DNA from: Bacteroidota bacterium
Lineage (GTDB): Bacteria; Bacteroidota; Bacteroidia; Flavobacteriales_D; Crocinitomicaceae
DNA length: 64,000 nucleotides
Direction of reading: 5' to 3'
Assembly: GCA_024280295.1 (NCBI GenBank)
Contig: JAJRQK010000047.1
Location: 1-64,000 of the forward strand
This document shows, one piece after another, positions 14,865 to 23,233 of this stretch. The position numbers were made by a program, and so were the translations under genes. The first letter of the stretch is position 1. Every line of letters starts with the position of its first letter. The notes under the pieces are model-generated. The model searched no databases, was not told the origin of the DNA, and was given only the letters and a program-made list of their open reading frames with translations.

Positions 14865-15314
14865 TTAGATATAAATTTGCTCTCGTTGTAAGTAACTATC
14901 TTTTCCTATTTTAAAGAAAATTTCGATATTGTAGAATCCTTCTTTTAGATTTTTCTTCATAATTCCATGGGTTTTTTCAGTCCCCAATTCGATTTCGAAA
15001 TCATCTGCATTATTGTTAGGCTTTTTGAAGATAATCAGAACATCCTTAATATTTTCATTGTTCGGTACAGAAAACGAAACGATATTTTCATCTTGAATCA
15101 ATTGAATTTTATTTTCGAGATTATTACTATTTTTAATGGCAATCATCTCCTCATTATAAGCAAGATCGCGTTGATAATATTCTTCATCAACTAAATCCAC
15201 ATCTTTCGAAATCATAATCGTTACAAGCGTCACAATGAAACCAATAAACAACACCAATACTACTGCAATTCCTTTTCCCCAGTTCATATTATAAATTTTA
15301 TAGCATAGGACCAA
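14865..15314 (-). CDS. ccoH: FixH family protein
   Basis: MNWGKGIAVVLVLFIGFIVTLVTIMISKDVDLVDEEYYQRDLAYNEEM; true start probably the internal M of MNWGKG (15287). Confidence 0.85.
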   Translation of the reverse strand: MVLCYKIYNMNWGKGIAVVLVLFIGFIVTLVTIMISKDVDLVDEEYYQRDLAYNEEMIAIKNSNNLENKIQLIQDENIVSFSVPNNENIKDVLIIFKKPNNNADDFEIELGTEKTHGIMKKNLKEGFYNIEIFFKIGKDSYLQREQIYI

Positions 15315-16716
15315 TAAATTTGGTACTCACACGCTGAATTTCATTTCCATTTCCAAGAACAACTATATCCACTTTGAGTTTTCCATTATTGATCTCACTT
15401 AGCGGTAGACGCAACACAAATCGTTCCTTCAACTCTTCTTGACCATGAAGAATCAAATTGTTGACAACTAAATCAAGATCTCCAATAGGGTAATCCAATT
15501 TCAACTCGATTTTATAGTTCTTTTTAGTTTTGTTGGTCAAATTTATTTCAAAAATATTCCGCACCATTCCGCCCTCTCCCATCTGATAAGTTGTGCCACG
15601 TTGACGAAGAATCACCGCTTGAAAATCACTCCTAGTAAATAATAAGATTACCAAAACACCCACAAGTGCAACAAGTAGGGCTGTATATGCTTTCACGCGT
15701 TTAGTCCATTCGAATTTTTTTCTAGTCTCAATTCCTTTCTCAGACACTAAGCGAATTAAGCCTTTTTCAAGACCAACACTATCCATTATGTGATCACAGG
15801 CATCCATACACGCCGTACAATTGATACATTCAAGTTGAGTACCATTTCTAATATCAATTCCAGTTGGACAGACATGAACACATTGGCCACAATCAATACA
15901 ATCTCCTTTCCCAACGGCCTTACGATCTTCATTTTTTTTAAATTTTGCTCTCCCCTCACCACGTTTATGATCATAACCGACAACCATAGAATCCTCATCT
16001 AACAGGACTCCCTGCAATCTACCATAAGGACAAATTGTAGTACACACTTGCTCTCGAAGTTGTGAAAAGACAAGGTAAAATGCTGTTGCAAAGATCAGAA
16101 TGGCAATCAATCCCCCGATGTGAGAACCAAGAGGATCAGTTTGGATGTTCCATAGTTCATCAGTTCCAATAATGTAGGCTAAAAATGTATTAGCAATAGC
16201 AAAGGAAATGATCCAAAAAATCAAATGTTTCAGTGTCTTGCGCCAAATTTTATTCCAATCCCATGGTCCTTTATTGAGTTTCTTCTGATGCGTCCAATCC
16301 CCTTCAATCTTATACTCAATTCTTCTGAAGACCATCTCCATAAAGATCGTTTGAGGGCATACCCAACCACAAAATAACCGTCCATATATAATGGTGAATA
16401 AGACGATAAAAATTACTGCAACAATGAACCCTACGGCGAAAATGAACATATCCTGTGGCCAGAATATTTTACCAAAGATGATAAACTTACGCTCCAGAAT
16501 ATTAAACAAAAATGATTGTTCGCCTCCTATCTTAATATGTGGTAATCCAAAAAGAAGAAGGAGAAAAAAATAGCTTAATATCTTTCGATAATTATAGAGT
16601 TTCCCTTTAGGTTTCTTTGCATAGACCCAAACCCTACTTCCATCTTCGTTTATCGTAGAGATACTATCTCTGTACGTTTCATCTGGATTTTCCTCAAACT
16701 CTTCAAACTCTCCCAT
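15298..16716 (-). CDS. ccoG: cytochrome c oxidase accessory protein CcoG (FixG, 4Fe-4S)
   Basis: CGWVCPQTIFMEMVFRRIEYKIEGD; GDCIDCGQCVHVCPTGIDIRNGTQLECINCTACMDACD. Confidence 0.96.
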   Translation of the reverse strand: MGEFEEFEENPDETYRDSISTINEDGSRVWVYAKKPKGKLYNYRKILSYFFLLLLFGLPHIKIGGEQSFLFNILERKFIIFGKIFWPQDMFIFAVGFIVAVIFIVLFTIIYGRLFCGWVCPQTIFMEMVFRRIEYKIEGDWTHQKKLNKGPWDWNKIWRKTLKHLIFWIISFAIANTFLAYIIGTDELWNIQTDPLGSHIGGLIAILIFATAFYLVFSQLREQVCTTICPYGRLQGVLLDEDSMVVGYDHKRGEGRAKFKKNEDRKAVGKGDCIDCGQCVHVCPTGIDIRNGTQLECINCTACMDACDHIMDSVGLEKGLIRLVSEKGIETRKKFEWTKRVKAYTALLVALVGVLVILLFTRSDFQAVILRQRGTTYQMGEGGMVRNIFEINLTNKTKKNYKIELKLDYPIGDLDLVVNNLILHGQEELKERFVLRLPLSEINNGKLKVDIVVLGNGNEIQRVSTKFIGPML

Positions 16717-16743: not shown

Positions 16744-18156
16744 TTACTTGATAACCTCTCCTTCGGGTTCTTTACCCACAACCTCTTTCATCGATAGAAT
16801 AAATGATGATACCTGCTGCAATTGTATTGGGTTTAGTTTTGATTTATGCTCAGGCATACCATTACTCGTACCATTTTTAATTGTACCGAATACCGTTGCG
16901 ATATCAAACCCATAAATCCAAGTGTTATCCGTTAAGTTGGGACCGATATCTCCTCCTCCTTTTTCAGCATGACAAACAATACAATTTGCTTGGAATATCC
17001 CCCCCCCCTTATCAATACTCTCTTCATCCTCCATTAAAGTAACATTACTTTCATCAACGTTCATTGCCATGCTCTCTAGGTATTCTTGTACTTCAATTTC
17101 GGATTGAGCCATCTCTTTCTCATACTCTGCAATTTGTAAATCAGCTGTGCCAAGAATGTGATAATTGAAAATATAAACAATGGCAAATACAATTGTTGCA
17201 TAGAACATCCATACCCACCAAGGAGGTAGATTGTTATCCAACTCGTGAATCCCGTCATACTCATGTTCCAATAAAATCGATTCCTCTTCTTCGATAGGAA
17301 CAGCATTAGTCATAATTTTATTCATCTTGCGTATCACCTCACCATCAACGTATTTAGGCTCTGGTTCTGGATTCACAACTTTCATTGCTTCCCTGAATAT
17401 TTTTTTAAGGTACAAGACAACCCCAACTAGCATGATGTTTACAGCAACTAATGCATAAATATCTGCCATTTCAACAATGAGCCAAGGCATATTTTCACCA
17501 GCATTTGGCTTCACAAAACTTAATGCATATATAGAAGGAGTAAAGAATCCAGACATGACAATTAAAATCATCAATGCTTTTAAACCACCCGATTTAGAAT
17601 TATCTGACTCTCGCAATTTATTTTTAAAATAATCCGACCTTAAAAGCGATTGAATCGATTTAGACATCCCATTAATAACTAACAAGAATAAAATAATTGA
17701 CGCTATCAACGCATAAAATAGGTTCAACCTCTTACCATAATTTGGAATTGTATGTACCTCAGCATCTTCCTTAGGTTTGTCTATAATTTCCTCAGACTTA
17801 GGTGCAACATAGCTATCAACAAAATCAAGAATCGCATCAACCTCTTCATTGGTAACCTCTTGAGTAGGCATTGCTGTAATACTAAATTCCGAAATTGCCA
17901 AAGCCATTTTACTTGCTCCAGTTTCCAAAAGTGCTTCAGAACCCTTCACCCAATCATAAAGCATTACTTGTTCATTTGCTGCTATCCATTTAGCTTTTAC
18001 TCCTTGAAGCATTGGTCCGATAGAGTTCTTATCAAGATTGTGGCAAGTAGCACATTTGGATTTAAATAATGCTTGACCATCTTGAGCGATTACTTTTAGT
18101 CCTCCAATACATAACCAGAGAATTCCTATCAATAGATATTTAAGGTGCTTTTTCAT
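16744..18156 (-). CDS. ccoP: cbb3-type cytochrome c oxidase subunit CcoP-like, with additional N-terminal cytochrome c domain
   Basis: N-terminal CATCH and C-terminal CIVCH heme motifs flank TM segments; LPPWWVWMFYATIVFAIVYIFNYH is the CcoP N domain. Confidence 0.92.
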   Translation of the reverse strand: MKKHLKYLLIGILWLCIGGLKVIAQDGQALFKSKCATCHNLDKNSIGPMLQGVKAKWIAANEQVMLYDWVKGSEALLETGASKMALAISEFSITAMPTQEVTNEEVDAILDFVDSYVAPKSEEIIDKPKEDAEVHTIPNYGKRLNLFYALIASIILFLLVINGMSKSIQSLLRSDYFKNKLRESDNSKSGGLKALMILIVMSGFFTPSIYALSFVKPNAGENMPWLIVEMADIYALVAVNIMLVGVVLYLKKIFREAMKVVNPEPEPKYVDGEVIRKMNKIMTNAVPIEEEESILLEHEYDGIHELDNNLPPWWVWMFYATIVFAIVYIFNYHILGTADLQIAEYEKEMAQSEIEVQEYLESMAMNVDESNVTLMEDEESIDKGGGIFQANCIVCHAEKGGGDIGPNLTDNTWIYGFDIATVFGTIKNGTSNGMPEHKSKLNPIQLQQVSSFILSMKEVVGKEPEGEVIK

Positions 18157-18160
18157 TTAT

Positions 18161-18364
18161 TCACTTTTTAAAATCTAGTGGTTGTTCAATCTCACCCCCC
18201 CCTTCCAATGGCAGGCTGCTCACTTCTTCGATATAATTCTTTTTCATACGAACAACATAGATGATCATCACTACAAAGAAGATTACAAAAATCAGTAAAG
18301 AGAAGAGAGGATAAATATCTACTCCGTCAATCCCTGTCAAGTTGTGTTTTATATATCGTAACAT
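18161..18364 (-). CDS. ccoQ: CcoQ-like small membrane subunit
   Basis: 67 aa, single TM, located between ccoNO and ccoP. Confidence 0.75.
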   Translation of the reverse strand: MLRYIKHNLTGIDGVDIYPLFSLLIFVIFFVVMIIYVVRMKKNYIEEVSSLPLEGGGEIEQPLDFKK

Positions 18365-18370
18365 ACTCTA

Positions 18371-20599
18371 TCAATTAGATTTAATGATTGTATCCTTTAC
18401 CTCTTTGGTATCGGGCATTTCAGTTTCAATTTCCTTATCTTCATTCACCTTCTTTATATCAGTTCCGAGGCGTTGTAAGTATGCAATTATAGCTACAACC
18501 TCTTTTGTTTTGAGTTTGTTAATCTCATTTTGAATATTGATACTTTTCTTAAGCTCTAGCGGGTAATTAGTAACAATATCTGTTGCAATAGCAAGTGCTT
18601 GACTTTCCATACTATCTACAGCTATCTTCTCGAACCCTTTCTCGTATGGTACACCTAGGGTTCTCATCGCGTTAATTTTAGTTTCCATTAGTGTTTTATC
18701 GAAGTCATTGTCTTTCATCCATGTATATGCAGGCATTAATGATCCTTCTGACACATCTTTTGGTCGAATCATGTGTTGATAGTGCCAGAAATTACTCCTC
18801 AACCCACCTTCTCTAGCAAGATCAGGACCTGTACGTTTCGAACCCCATTGAAACGGATGATCGTAGACAAACTCGCCTGATTTAGAATATTCGCCGTACC
18901 GTTCTGTTTCAAAGCGAAGCGGGCGCACCATCTGAGAATGACAGTTGTAGCAACCTTCTTTTATGTAAAGATCTCGTCCTTCTAGTTCAAGTGGCGTATA
19001 TGGCTTCACAGCAGAGATTGTTGGAACATTACTATCCACAATCATTGTAGGGATAATCTCAACCAGCCCTCCAATTAGAACTACAATCAAACTAACAATC
19101 AAGAATTTCACAGGACGACGCTCTATCCCTCTATGCCAATGTTCCTTACTATGTGATTTTGTTTTAACCAAGGCTGGAGCTTCAGCATCTTCATTGGCAA
19201 GCAATTTACCAGACTTAGCCGTTTTGATTAAGTTCCAGAACATTTGGCACGTACCAATGATAAATATCAGCCCCCCTAATGAGCGAAGCATGTAATATGG
19301 TGCCAAAGAGTTAACTGTTTCCAAAAATTCTGGGTGAACCAATGTACCGTCTGGATTGAAATCCTGCCACATCAGCCCTTGCATAAATCCAGCGATGTAC
19401 ATTGGGATTGCATACAGAATTATACCCAACGTAGCAATCCAAAAGTGTTGATTTGCCGCTTTTTTGGAATATAATTTTGTCCTAAATATTCTAGGGAACA
19501 ACCAGTAAAGCATACCGAAGGCAAACATTGCATTCCACCCAAGTCCGCCTACATGAACGTGCGCAATGGTCCAATCGGTAAAATGTGAAATCGTATTTAC
19601 GTTTTTAAGAGACAGAAGCGGTCCTTCAAAAGTTACCATTCCATAACAAGTCAATGCGACAACCATAAATTTAAGTGTTACATCGTCGCGAACACGATCC
19701 CATGCACCACGAAGTGTAAGAAGACCGTTTAACATTCCCCCCCAAGAAGGCGCGATCAACATAATAGAGAATACGACACCTAAACTTTGTGCCCAATCAG
19801 GTAACGAAGTGTACAAAAGGTGATGAGGTCCAGCCCATATATAAAGGAAGATTAATGCCCAAAAGTGAATGATTGAAAGCCTATATGAATATACAGGTCG
19901 ATTTGCTGCTTTTGGCACAAAATAATACATCAATCCTAGGAATGGAGTTGTTAGAAAGAACGCCACTGCATTATGACCATACCACCATTGAACCAACGCA
20001 TCCTGTACTCCCGCATACCATGAGTAACTTTTCATAAACGAAACAGGAAGTTCAAATGAGTTAAAAATATGAAGGATTGCTACCGTGACAAATGTTGCGA
20101 TGTAAAACCAGATAGCTACATATAAGTGTTTTACACGCCGCTTCATTATCGTTGCAAACATGTTCCATCCGAAAACCACCCACATAATAGTGATCAGGAT
20201 ATCAATCCACCATTCAAGTTCGGCGTATTCTTTCCCCGATGTATACCCCAGAGGTAGAGTAATAACTGCACAAAGAATAATAAATTGCCATCCCCAAAAG
20301 TTGATATAACTAAGTTTATCACTCCACATTCTAGCTTTCACCAAACGCTGAAGGGAGTAATAAATCCCCATGAAGATTGCATTTCCAACAAAAGCAAAAA
20401 TCATAGCATTGGTATGCAGCGGTCTTATTCTACCAAAAGATAGCCAACTAAATCCCAAGTAGTCGTTAAAGAATTCAGGAAAGGCCAACTGTAACGCTGC
20501 TGTTAACCCAGTTAACATTCCGATAATCCCCCAGATTATAGTAGCATACGCGAAATTTCGTACGATCTTATTGTCGTAACTAAACTTTTGTATTTCCAT
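18371..20599 (-). CDS. ccoNO: cbb3-type cytochrome c oxidase, fused CcoN-CcoO
   Basis: Heme-copper oxidase subunit I motifs (WWYGHNAVAFF, HVHVGGLGWNAMF) followed by EGCYNCHSQMVRPL of CcoO; start set to MEIQKFSYDN. Confidence 0.96.
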   Translation of the reverse strand: MEIQKFSYDNKIVRNFAYATIIWGIIGMLTGLTAALQLAFPEFFNDYLGFSWLSFGRIRPLHTNAMIFAFVGNAIFMGIYYSLQRLVKARMWSDKLSYINFWGWQFIILCAVITLPLGYTSGKEYAELEWWIDILITIMWVVFGWNMFATIMKRRVKHLYVAIWFYIATFVTVAILHIFNSFELPVSFMKSYSWYAGVQDALVQWWYGHNAVAFFLTTPFLGLMYYFVPKAANRPVYSYRLSIIHFWALIFLYIWAGPHHLLYTSLPDWAQSLGVVFSIMLIAPSWGGMLNGLLTLRGAWDRVRDDVTLKFMVVALTCYGMVTFEGPLLSLKNVNTISHFTDWTIAHVHVGGLGWNAMFAFGMLYWLFPRIFRTKLYSKKAANQHFWIATLGIILYAIPMYIAGFMQGLMWQDFNPDGTLVHPEFLETVNSLAPYYMLRSLGGLIFIIGTCQMFWNLIKTAKSGKLLANEDAEAPALVKTKSHSKEHWHRGIERRPVKFLIVSLIVVLIGGLVEIIPTMIVDSNVPTISAVKPYTPLELEGRDLYIKEGCYNCHSQMVRPLRFETERYGEYSKSGEFVYDHPFQWGSKRTGPDLAREGGLRSNFWHYQHMIRPKDVSEGSLMPAYTWMKDNDFDKTLMETKINAMRTLGVPYEKGFEKIAVDSMESQALAIATDIVTNYPLELKKSINIQNEINKLKTKEVVAIIAYLQRLGTDIKKVNEDKEIETEMPDTKEVKDTIIKSN

Positions 20600-20768
20600 C
20601 GACTTGTTTGTTGTTTTTTTTATCCGTGTTTTCATCATCAAAGAGAATTCTTACCGATGGACCGTAATCGTCATCGTACTGTCCATTTTTAGCAGCCCAA
20701 AAGAAGGATCCTAAAAAAAATAAGGCGATAATTAAACTTACAATCAGCATCAGATAAATGATTCCCAT
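20580..20768 (-). CDS. ccoS: cbb3-type oxidase assembly protein CcoS
   Basis: MGIIYLMLIVSLIIALFFLGSFFWAAKNGQYDDDYGPSVRILFDDE. Confidence 0.92.
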   Translation of the reverse strand: MGIIYLMLIVSLIIALFFLGSFFWAAKNGQYDDDYGPSVRILFDDENTDKKNNKQVDGNTKV

Positions 20769-20878: not shown

Positions 20879-23233
20879 TCACAGCCGTTTGGACAAGACA
20901 AACAATGTGCTAATAACGACTATTGTAATAGAACTAATGGGCATTAAAATTGCAGCAATTAAGGGAGTTAACATTCCTGAAACTGCAAAAAACAAGCCAA
21001 CGAAATTGTATACAATTGAGAACCAAACACATATTTTAAGTACCGTTTTAGCATGATAACTTACCCCAAAAAATGAGTCTAGTCGATGAAGACCATTAGC
21101 TTCCAAAATTGCATCGGAACTTGGTGTAAATTGAAAAACATCATCAGAGACAGCAATTCCAACATTCGAAGCAACTAATGCCTCCACATCATTTAGTCCG
21201 TCTCCAATCATCATCACATGCCGCCCTTGGGATTGTAAGTTCTTTATATAAGCTAGTTTATCAGTTGGAGATTGATTAAAATGAAGTTCTTTCAAACTAG
21301 GTATTTCTTCGCGTAATAGATCGAGATCCTTAGTATTATCTCCAGAAAGGATATGGATCATTTTGGTTTGCATAAGGCGATTAATAAGATCTGACACTCC
21401 ATTTCTCAATTCTGATTGAAAAGAAAACTTTCCTATGGTCACACCTGCAATTTTAACATACGAAGAAATTTCTACTATCGTTTCAGAGGTAGAGTTAACA
21501 AACCCTCTAGCTCCAATCATTACAAAATCTCCATCTATTTTTGCTTGAATTCCTTTGCCAGGAACTTCACAATAATCTTCCATTTCAAATTTCTCTAATA
21601 AATTACCCTTTGCCAAATAATTCAATATCCCTCTGGACAAAGGATGGGTAGAAGACCTAGTGATTATCATTATTTGAGTTATTTGTCTACTCGTAAGTAC
21701 ATCCCCTTTATAGGACACATTTTCATAGCCTCCTTTCGTTAAAGTTCCCGTTTTATCGAAAACGATATCAGTTATGTTATTCATCCTTTGAATCACTTCA
21801 ATATTTTTCAAATAAAGTCCACTTCTTCCTAATTTCCGAAGTGTATTTCCAAATGTAAACGGCCGTGATAATGCAAGAGCACACGGACAAGCAACAATCA
21901 ATACAGATACGACAGTATGAACAATCAATGAAGGGTCGATAAATAGCCAAGCAATACCTGTTCCTAATGCTAAGACAAGTACTATAATTACAAAATAAAG
22001 TGAAATATTATCTTGATCTTGTTGACTATCACCATCCAATTCTATACTCGACGAGTCCCAAAGTTCATTTAATCGGCTTCTTTTAGGTGTATTTTTAACT
22101 CGAAACTCCGTTCGTTGACCGATAATCTTTCCTCCTGCAAAAACGAGATCTCCTTTAAAAATTTCCTTCGAAAGAGACTCTCCTGTAACGAAGCTGTAAT
22201 CAATCTGTGCAGAAGAAGATTGTAAAAATGAATCGCATGGAATAATTTCATCGTTTCGTAGGAGTATAACATCTTCTATGTTGAGTTTATCGATTTCAAC
22301 AATTTCTTCCTGCTCATCTTTTTTTCTAATTACAGCAATCGGAAAATAAGACTCACGATCTCTTTCAAATGAAAGATTCTGATACGTTTTATTCTGAAAC
22401 CACTTCCCTATTAAGAGAAAGAAAATAAATCCCGCAAAGCTATCCATATATCCAGGTCCAGACCCTGTTAAAATTGTATATGTGCTTTGAGAATAAAGAG
22501 CAAAAATTCCAAATGTAATTGGGACATCAATATTAATTGACCTATACCTTAGTGCTTTAAATGCAGACCTATAATACTCATTCGCTGAAAACAGAAAAAC
22601 TGGAATGGAGATTAGAAGTGACAAATAAGACGTAAACCTCCGTATTTCTGGATCTGTGCCTTCAATTCCCAAGTATTCAGGGAAACTCCAAAGCATAATA
22701 CTCCCGAATGCAAATCCAGCTACGCCTAACTTGTACAAGAAGAGTTTATTTATTCCACCACGTACATCCGATCGTTCTTCAAAATTTGGAGCATATCCAA
22801 TTCGATCGAGTAATATTGCCAACTCTGAAAGCATCAAAGTATTTTTATCAAAAATAATTGTTGCCTCCTTTTTCGTGAAGTTTGTATGGCAGCTATAAAT
22901 ACGCGGGTCAACCTTAGTAATATTTTCTAATAGAAAAATACAAGATGAGCAATGAATTGTAGGTAAGAAAAAGGTGACATGAATAGAGTTATCATCTTCA
23001 AAGCCAATAAATCGCTCTTGAATTTCGGGAACATCAAGAAAATCATACTTATGAAAATTACTTGTTGATGGTCGTGTACCTGCCCCAGGTTCCATTTCAT
23101 AAAATGAGTCCAGTCCATTCTCACTTAGTAATAAGTATACATTCTTACAACCATTACAGCAAAATTGCTTCGGACCAGCTTGATAGGCTTTACCAATAAT
23201 GTCATCTCCACAATGGAAGCAAGATTCTTTCAT
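20879..23233 (-). CDS. ccoI: heavy-metal translocating P-type ATPase, CcoI/FixI-like
   Basis: N-terminal CFHCGDD...FCCNGCKNVY, HCSSCIFLLEN, CPCALALSRP, DKTGTLT, GDGLNDVEAL. Confidence 0.95.
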   Translation of the reverse strand: MKESCFHCGDDIIGKAYQAGPKQFCCNGCKNVYLLLSENGLDSFYEMEPGAGTRPSTSNFHKYDFLDVPEIQERFIGFEDDNSIHVTFFLPTIHCSSCIFLLENITKVDPRIYSCHTNFTKKEATIIFDKNTLMLSELAILLDRIGYAPNFEERSDVRGGINKLFLYKLGVAGFAFGSIMLWSFPEYLGIEGTDPEIRRFTSYLSLLISIPVFLFSANEYYRSAFKALRYRSINIDVPITFGIFALYSQSTYTILTGSGPGYMDSFAGFIFFLLIGKWFQNKTYQNLSFERDRESYFPIAVIRKKDEQEEIVEIDKLNIEDVILLRNDEIIPCDSFLQSSSAQIDYSFVTGESLSKEIFKGDLVFAGGKIIGQRTEFRVKNTPKRSRLNELWDSSSIELDGDSQQDQDNISLYFVIIVLVLALGTGIAWLFIDPSLIVHTVVSVLIVACPCALALSRPFTFGNTLRKLGRSGLYLKNIEVIQRMNNITDIVFDKTGTLTKGGYENVSYKGDVLTSRQITQIMIITRSSTHPLSRGILNYLAKGNLLEKFEMEDYCEVPGKGIQAKIDGDFVMIGARGFVNSTSETIVEISSYVKIAGVTIGKFSFQSELRNGVSDLINRLMQTKMIHILSGDNTKDLDLLREEIPSLKELHFNQSPTDKLAYIKNLQSQGRHVMMIGDGLNDVEALVASNVGIAVSDDVFQFTPSSDAILEANGLHRLDSFFGVSYHAKTVLKICVWFSIVYNFVGLFFAVSGMLTPLIAAILMPISSITIVVISTLFVLSKRL

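Follow-up and report, generated by a model that had tools for sequence, protein, structure and literature searches.

The run of ten guanines inside ccoP, the gene for subunit III of a cbb3-type oxidase, is probably an incidental, lineage-specific homopolymer and mutational hotspot rather than a selected on/off switch. The run lies in a window of 64,000 nucleotides, the whole stretch of DNA analysed, from a 3.46-Mb genome (74 contigs, 98.8% complete) whose nearest named records at the level of ccoP are Crocinitomicaceae MAGs (Flavobacteriales). The minus strand of the window carries a cbb3 oxidase cluster of the typical Bacteroidetes type (Table 1). The ccoP frame matches PF14715 and PF13442 above their gathering scores, and the neighbouring ccoNO and ccoG are likewise above their cut-offs. 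Against the NCBIfam equivalog TIGR00782, ccoP reaches 120.5 bits, under the cut-off of 179.95; this branch of CcoP has a family-specific N-terminal heme domain and a single C-terminal heme. Judged from its sequence, the product is an ordinary Bacteroidetes cbb3 oxidase subunit CcoP.

Table 1. Features of the cbb3 oxidase cluster and its guanine runs (positions in the window).
Feature	Position	Strand	Basis or remark
ccoH-like frame	14865-15314	-	named by position and by eye
ccoG	15298..16716	-	TIGR02745, 404 bits, above cut-off
ccoP, cbb3 oxidase subunit III, 470 aa, intact	16744..18156	-	FixP_N, 76 bits, and two cytochrome c matches
C-terminal heme motif CIVCH, residues 392-396	16969..16983	-	lost on any slip that is not a multiple of 3
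G10 homopolymer (C10 on the plus strand), ccoP codons 383-386	16999..17008	-	sequence
N-terminal heme motif CATCH, residues 35-39	18040..18054	-	upstream of the tract, kept on a slip
ccoQ-like frame, 67 aa	18161..18364	-	PF05545 FixQ, E 2.7e-4, 21.2 bits, under gathering score 29
G8, second run of the operon, near the 3' end of the ccoQ-like frame	18195-18202	-	run count in the window
fused ccoNO, 756 aa, with G7 at 19737-19743	18371..20641	-	NF011053, 1236 bits, above cut-off
small ccoS-like frame	20580-20768	-	named by position and by eye
P-type ATPase, ccoI-like	20879-23233	-	named by position and by eye

On the ccoP strand the tract reads ATT GAT AAG GGG GGG GGG ATA TTC, with G10 at nucleotides 1149-1158 of the coding sequence (the last base of the Lys383 codon plus all three Gly codons, 384-386), 81% of the way along the gene. 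The first-pass annotation had proposed this run as a candidate phase-variable switch, and its description of the tract holds: G10 is present and in frame within an intact ccoP. Computed translation gives for G9 a product of 407 aa ending in DKGGGYSKQIVLFVMLKKEEEISVPT and for G11 one of 397 aa ending in DKGGGDIPSKLYCLSC, letter for letter the tails that had been translated by hand. Either slip drops the C-terminal heme and spares the N-terminal one, also as described, and G13 brings back the ccoP frame with one more Gly. Changes of +1 or -1 break ccoP, as phase-variable contingency loci require, and G10 is a plausible slippage substrate. The same annotation listed neither the G8 of the ccoQ-like frame nor the G7 of ccoN; slips in the former would only alter or shorten the tail by at most about 10 residues.

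The CcoP proteins of the genus and of its nearest relatives carry two hemes (N-terminal CxxCH at about residue 35-60, C-terminal at about 380-425), and in distant Flavobacteriales relatives (L043-L048) the frame holds the C-terminal heme alone. No relative with a readable CcoP frame lacks this heme, the one-heme forms included; by this comparison it forms the subunit's core, to which the N-terminal domain is an addition. Because the C-terminal heme is kept in all readable frames, a slip should inactivate CcoP and not yield a variant: truncation should abolish electron transfer through CcoP and leave no working short form. In Neisseria meningitidis, too, a small DNA change costs CcoP a C-terminal heme domain: one nucleotide differs, as a fixed change, and the protein is truncated. 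There, however, it is the extra third heme that is gone and the di-heme CcoP works (PMC2924362), whereas the heme at risk here is the conserved one and the ccoP seen is full length. One relative (L035, minus strand, genome G029) encodes a CcoP of 590 aa with three CxxCH motifs, its C-terminal heme domain being duplicated in tandem, which recalls the tri-heme CcoP of Neisseria yet is separate from it. A second heme-copper oxidase of the COX1 type is encoded on contig C74, and no recognisable bd oxidase was found in the genome, so that a cbb3-null cell could probably respire at higher oxygen.

Comparison with relatives speaks against a selected switch. Among 54 ccoP relatives from two sets (about five are in both, leaving about 49 distinct; the best is 56% identical), none has a G run longer than 5 at the aligned site, and the maximum within the genus is 4. 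The first-pass annotation had named a tract fixed at ten, or replaced by synonymous GGA/GGT codons, in all reads and relatives as evidence against switching; between species, the tract is indeed replaced in all relatives compared. The aligned site mostly reads [K/A]-G-K-x-[L/I]-F, with G-K in nearly all relatives. The stretch differs in length only in the two most distant relatives, hence there was no net repeat insertion. Within a comparison set of at most 56% identity, the alignment places the tract as private to the species or to a narrow clade. The genome with the closest of the aligned MutL sequences (G016, 84%) yields nothing better for ccoP than weak cytochrome c hits, which leaves distant relatives for the ccoP comparison. 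Closer relatives were also sought at the DNA level in 34 genus genomes; ccoNOQP matched nowhere above about 77% except in very short pieces, and the ccoP part gave matches of 65-73% only. No duplicate or variant ccoP copy, as a possible second tract length, was found in the assembly itself. Frameshifted ccoP genes in relatives were considered as a sign of switching and set aside, none being broken at a G run. In genome G030 (L038 and L053) a shift of one base next to a short A run splits the gene near residue 80, far from the G10 site, perhaps through an error in the sequencing of that genome; in L036 the stops belong to a short out-of-frame patch close to the 3' end, and L039 is cut by a contig end.

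The tract most likely arose by substitutions in the Gly/Lys stretch whose length is the same in relatives, and it may have grown by slippage. It encodes Gly-Gly-Gly five residues ahead of the C-terminal heme motif. Occasional +1 or -1 slips would then give a truncated CcoP and an inactive cbb3 oxidase in single cells, which would be purged or tolerated by chance; such cells would be tolerable because the second heme-copper oxidase is encoded elsewhere.

The frequency of long G runs in the genome fits this account in part. In the window, 4 overlapping G8 words (two runs) are seen against 0.17 expected from dinucleotide shuffles. The whole genome holds 21 maximal runs of G8 or longer, 6 of G9 or longer and 4 of G10 or longer. 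Of these, 15, 4 and 3, respectively, are genic, against 14.9, 2.3 and 0.28 under a protein-preserving codon shuffle, a better null than the dinucleotide shuffle (synonymous codons were resampled with usage from the window alone, and the result was scaled to the genome assuming 90% coding). Gly and Pro codons together with codon usage thus account fully for the genic G8+ count. Genic runs of G10 or longer are about ten times the shuffle expectation, and this counts against an incidental origin; the mild excess probably stems from neutral slippage growth of runs that were already long. The ccoP G10 is uncommon but not isolated in its genome. A G7, a G8 and a G10 share 2.8 kb of the cco operon; this clustering, though striking at first sight, is not compelling, with about 0.15 pairs expected by a hand estimate for two of the 21 G8+ runs falling within 1.2 kb.

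If poly-G runs served as contingency devices, one would expect to find them chiefly in surface and modification genes. Such a concentration is weak at most. Each of the 15 genic runs lies inside a long intact frame, and profile searches identify core genes among the hosts, namely those for IF-2 (infB), LysS, LeuS, SucB and PGK. Further hosts are a PBP1A-family protein, a C-terminal processing peptidase, an S66 LD-carboxypeptidase, an NCS1 permease, a HisF2/WbuZ-type enzyme and a family-2 glycosidase (G10). Two hosts are large and of surface type, one with a sub-threshold SprB repeat and the other with an Ig-like CHU_C-associated domain. The longest G run of the genome is the G12 of the NCS1-type permease (L002:2973-2984, contig C15:39372-39383), which is read in frame as Pro codons in a Pro-rich stretch within an insertion. 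Other members of the genus have comparable numbers of G9+ runs, with none in the ccoP genes read.

The mismatch repair genes bear on how stable these runs are. An in-frame TAG interrupts the variable linker of mutL at codon 358, out of about 615 (minus strand, contig C40 at about 194015-194017; L116, L086). The ATPase part is spared, the C-terminal domain is cut off, and the 257 codons behind the stop are still open and conserved. None of the other 33 genus genomes shows any stop in mutL (two of the mutL genes are partial). Relatives carry CAA (in G016) or CAG (in another) at this codon, so one or two substitutions suffice for TAG. The mutS gene has no internal stop and runs across two contigs, whose ends (C52:9032-9349 and C23:36590-36907; L117, L118) overlap by 318 bp and differ there at two positions, both protein-changing; this suggests that the assembly mixes strains or has errors at its contig ends. 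The mutL stop may mark a natural mutator or be an assembly error. In other bacteria, loss of mutL raises homopolymer slippage.

It is accordingly conceivable, if unlikely, that mutL is truly inactive and that all long runs, G10 included, slip fast, ccoP variation then being collateral and short-lived. The stop is unique among the 34 genus genomes; the open and conserved frame behind it would make it recent, and both the codons found in relatives and the excess of G10+ runs point the same way. The stop also speaks against a purely incidental tract in that it would make the run unstable in this lineage. However, the TAG is a single base in a draft assembly in which the mutS contig ends disagree, and may therefore be an error or a minority allele. 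Moreover, all 15 genic G8+ runs are in frame; had the lineage been a mutator for long, some consensus runs should be out of frame. Even a real stop would affect every G run of the genome equally, and is in itself no sign that the ccoP tract is selected.

A contingency locus proper, with the tract under selection as a reversible cbb3 switch that is on at G10 and G13, off at G9 and G11, and maintains subpopulations along oxygen gradients, is very unlikely. The tract does resemble the poly-G and poly-C tracts of translational phase variation (contingency loci, e.g., in Neisseria) in being a coding run of at least 8 G in which +1 and -1 slips break the frame. Both slips cut CcoP before the last heme, genic G10+ runs are in excess, and off-phase cells could live on the second oxidase. 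Unlike contingency loci, though, it sits in a respiratory oxidase subunit, near the 3' end, is not kept in relatives, and belongs to a genome with such runs in core genes (IF-2, LysS, LeuS and PGK among them). Simple-repeat switches are known chiefly from surface structures and modification genes, and a selected terminal-oxidase switch would for that reason be unusual. A search of a limited body of literature for a terminal-oxidase gene with a poly-G switch found none, which is weak evidence of absence. Neisseria examples of simple-repeat switches are given in PMC5320596, where most translational switches sit in the 5' part of the gene, at odds with a tract this far downstream. The fixP/ccoP gene of Neisseria gonorrhoeae, of the same gene family, was a phase-variation candidate by an (AT)5 repeat, and that repeat is invariant in all strains compared (PMC5320596). 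Neither this repeat nor the meningococcal change is a poly-G switch. The first-pass annotation was therefore right about the consequence of a slip, but the switch itself is not borne out: the tract is private to this genome, being absent from all 54 relatives, and long runs are often in core genes. The G8+ count at expectation opposes it further, as does the loss of a conserved heme, which makes the off state a simple loss of function.

The two ideas can be combined in a lineage that has lost mismatch repair by a recent mutL nonsense mutation and in which the ccoP G10 therefore flips the cbb3 oxidase on and off very often, so that microaerobically competent and incompetent cells persist side by side, maybe selected along oxygen gradients; the chance of this is small. 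That the true tract has another length or is interrupted, G10 being a consensus of assembly or sequencing, is hardly credible: some platforms are prone to errors in homopolymers longer than eight bases (PMC5320596), but a wrong length would usually break the frame, and G10, like the other genic runs, gives an intact one, here with the expected heme domain.

An incidental homopolymer thus remains the probable reading of the ccoP tract. As found, it calls for caution, since a long genic G run without length variation or conservation is not the same as a contingency locus. The mutL stop is a more interesting by-product than the tract. If real, it would mark a mutator lineage in which G10 is unusually unstable as a by-product. 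The genome would then be that of a natural mutator from an environmental group of Bacteroidetes, with three ready-made slippage reporters: the G10 runs of ccoP and of the glycosidase and the G12 run of the permease.
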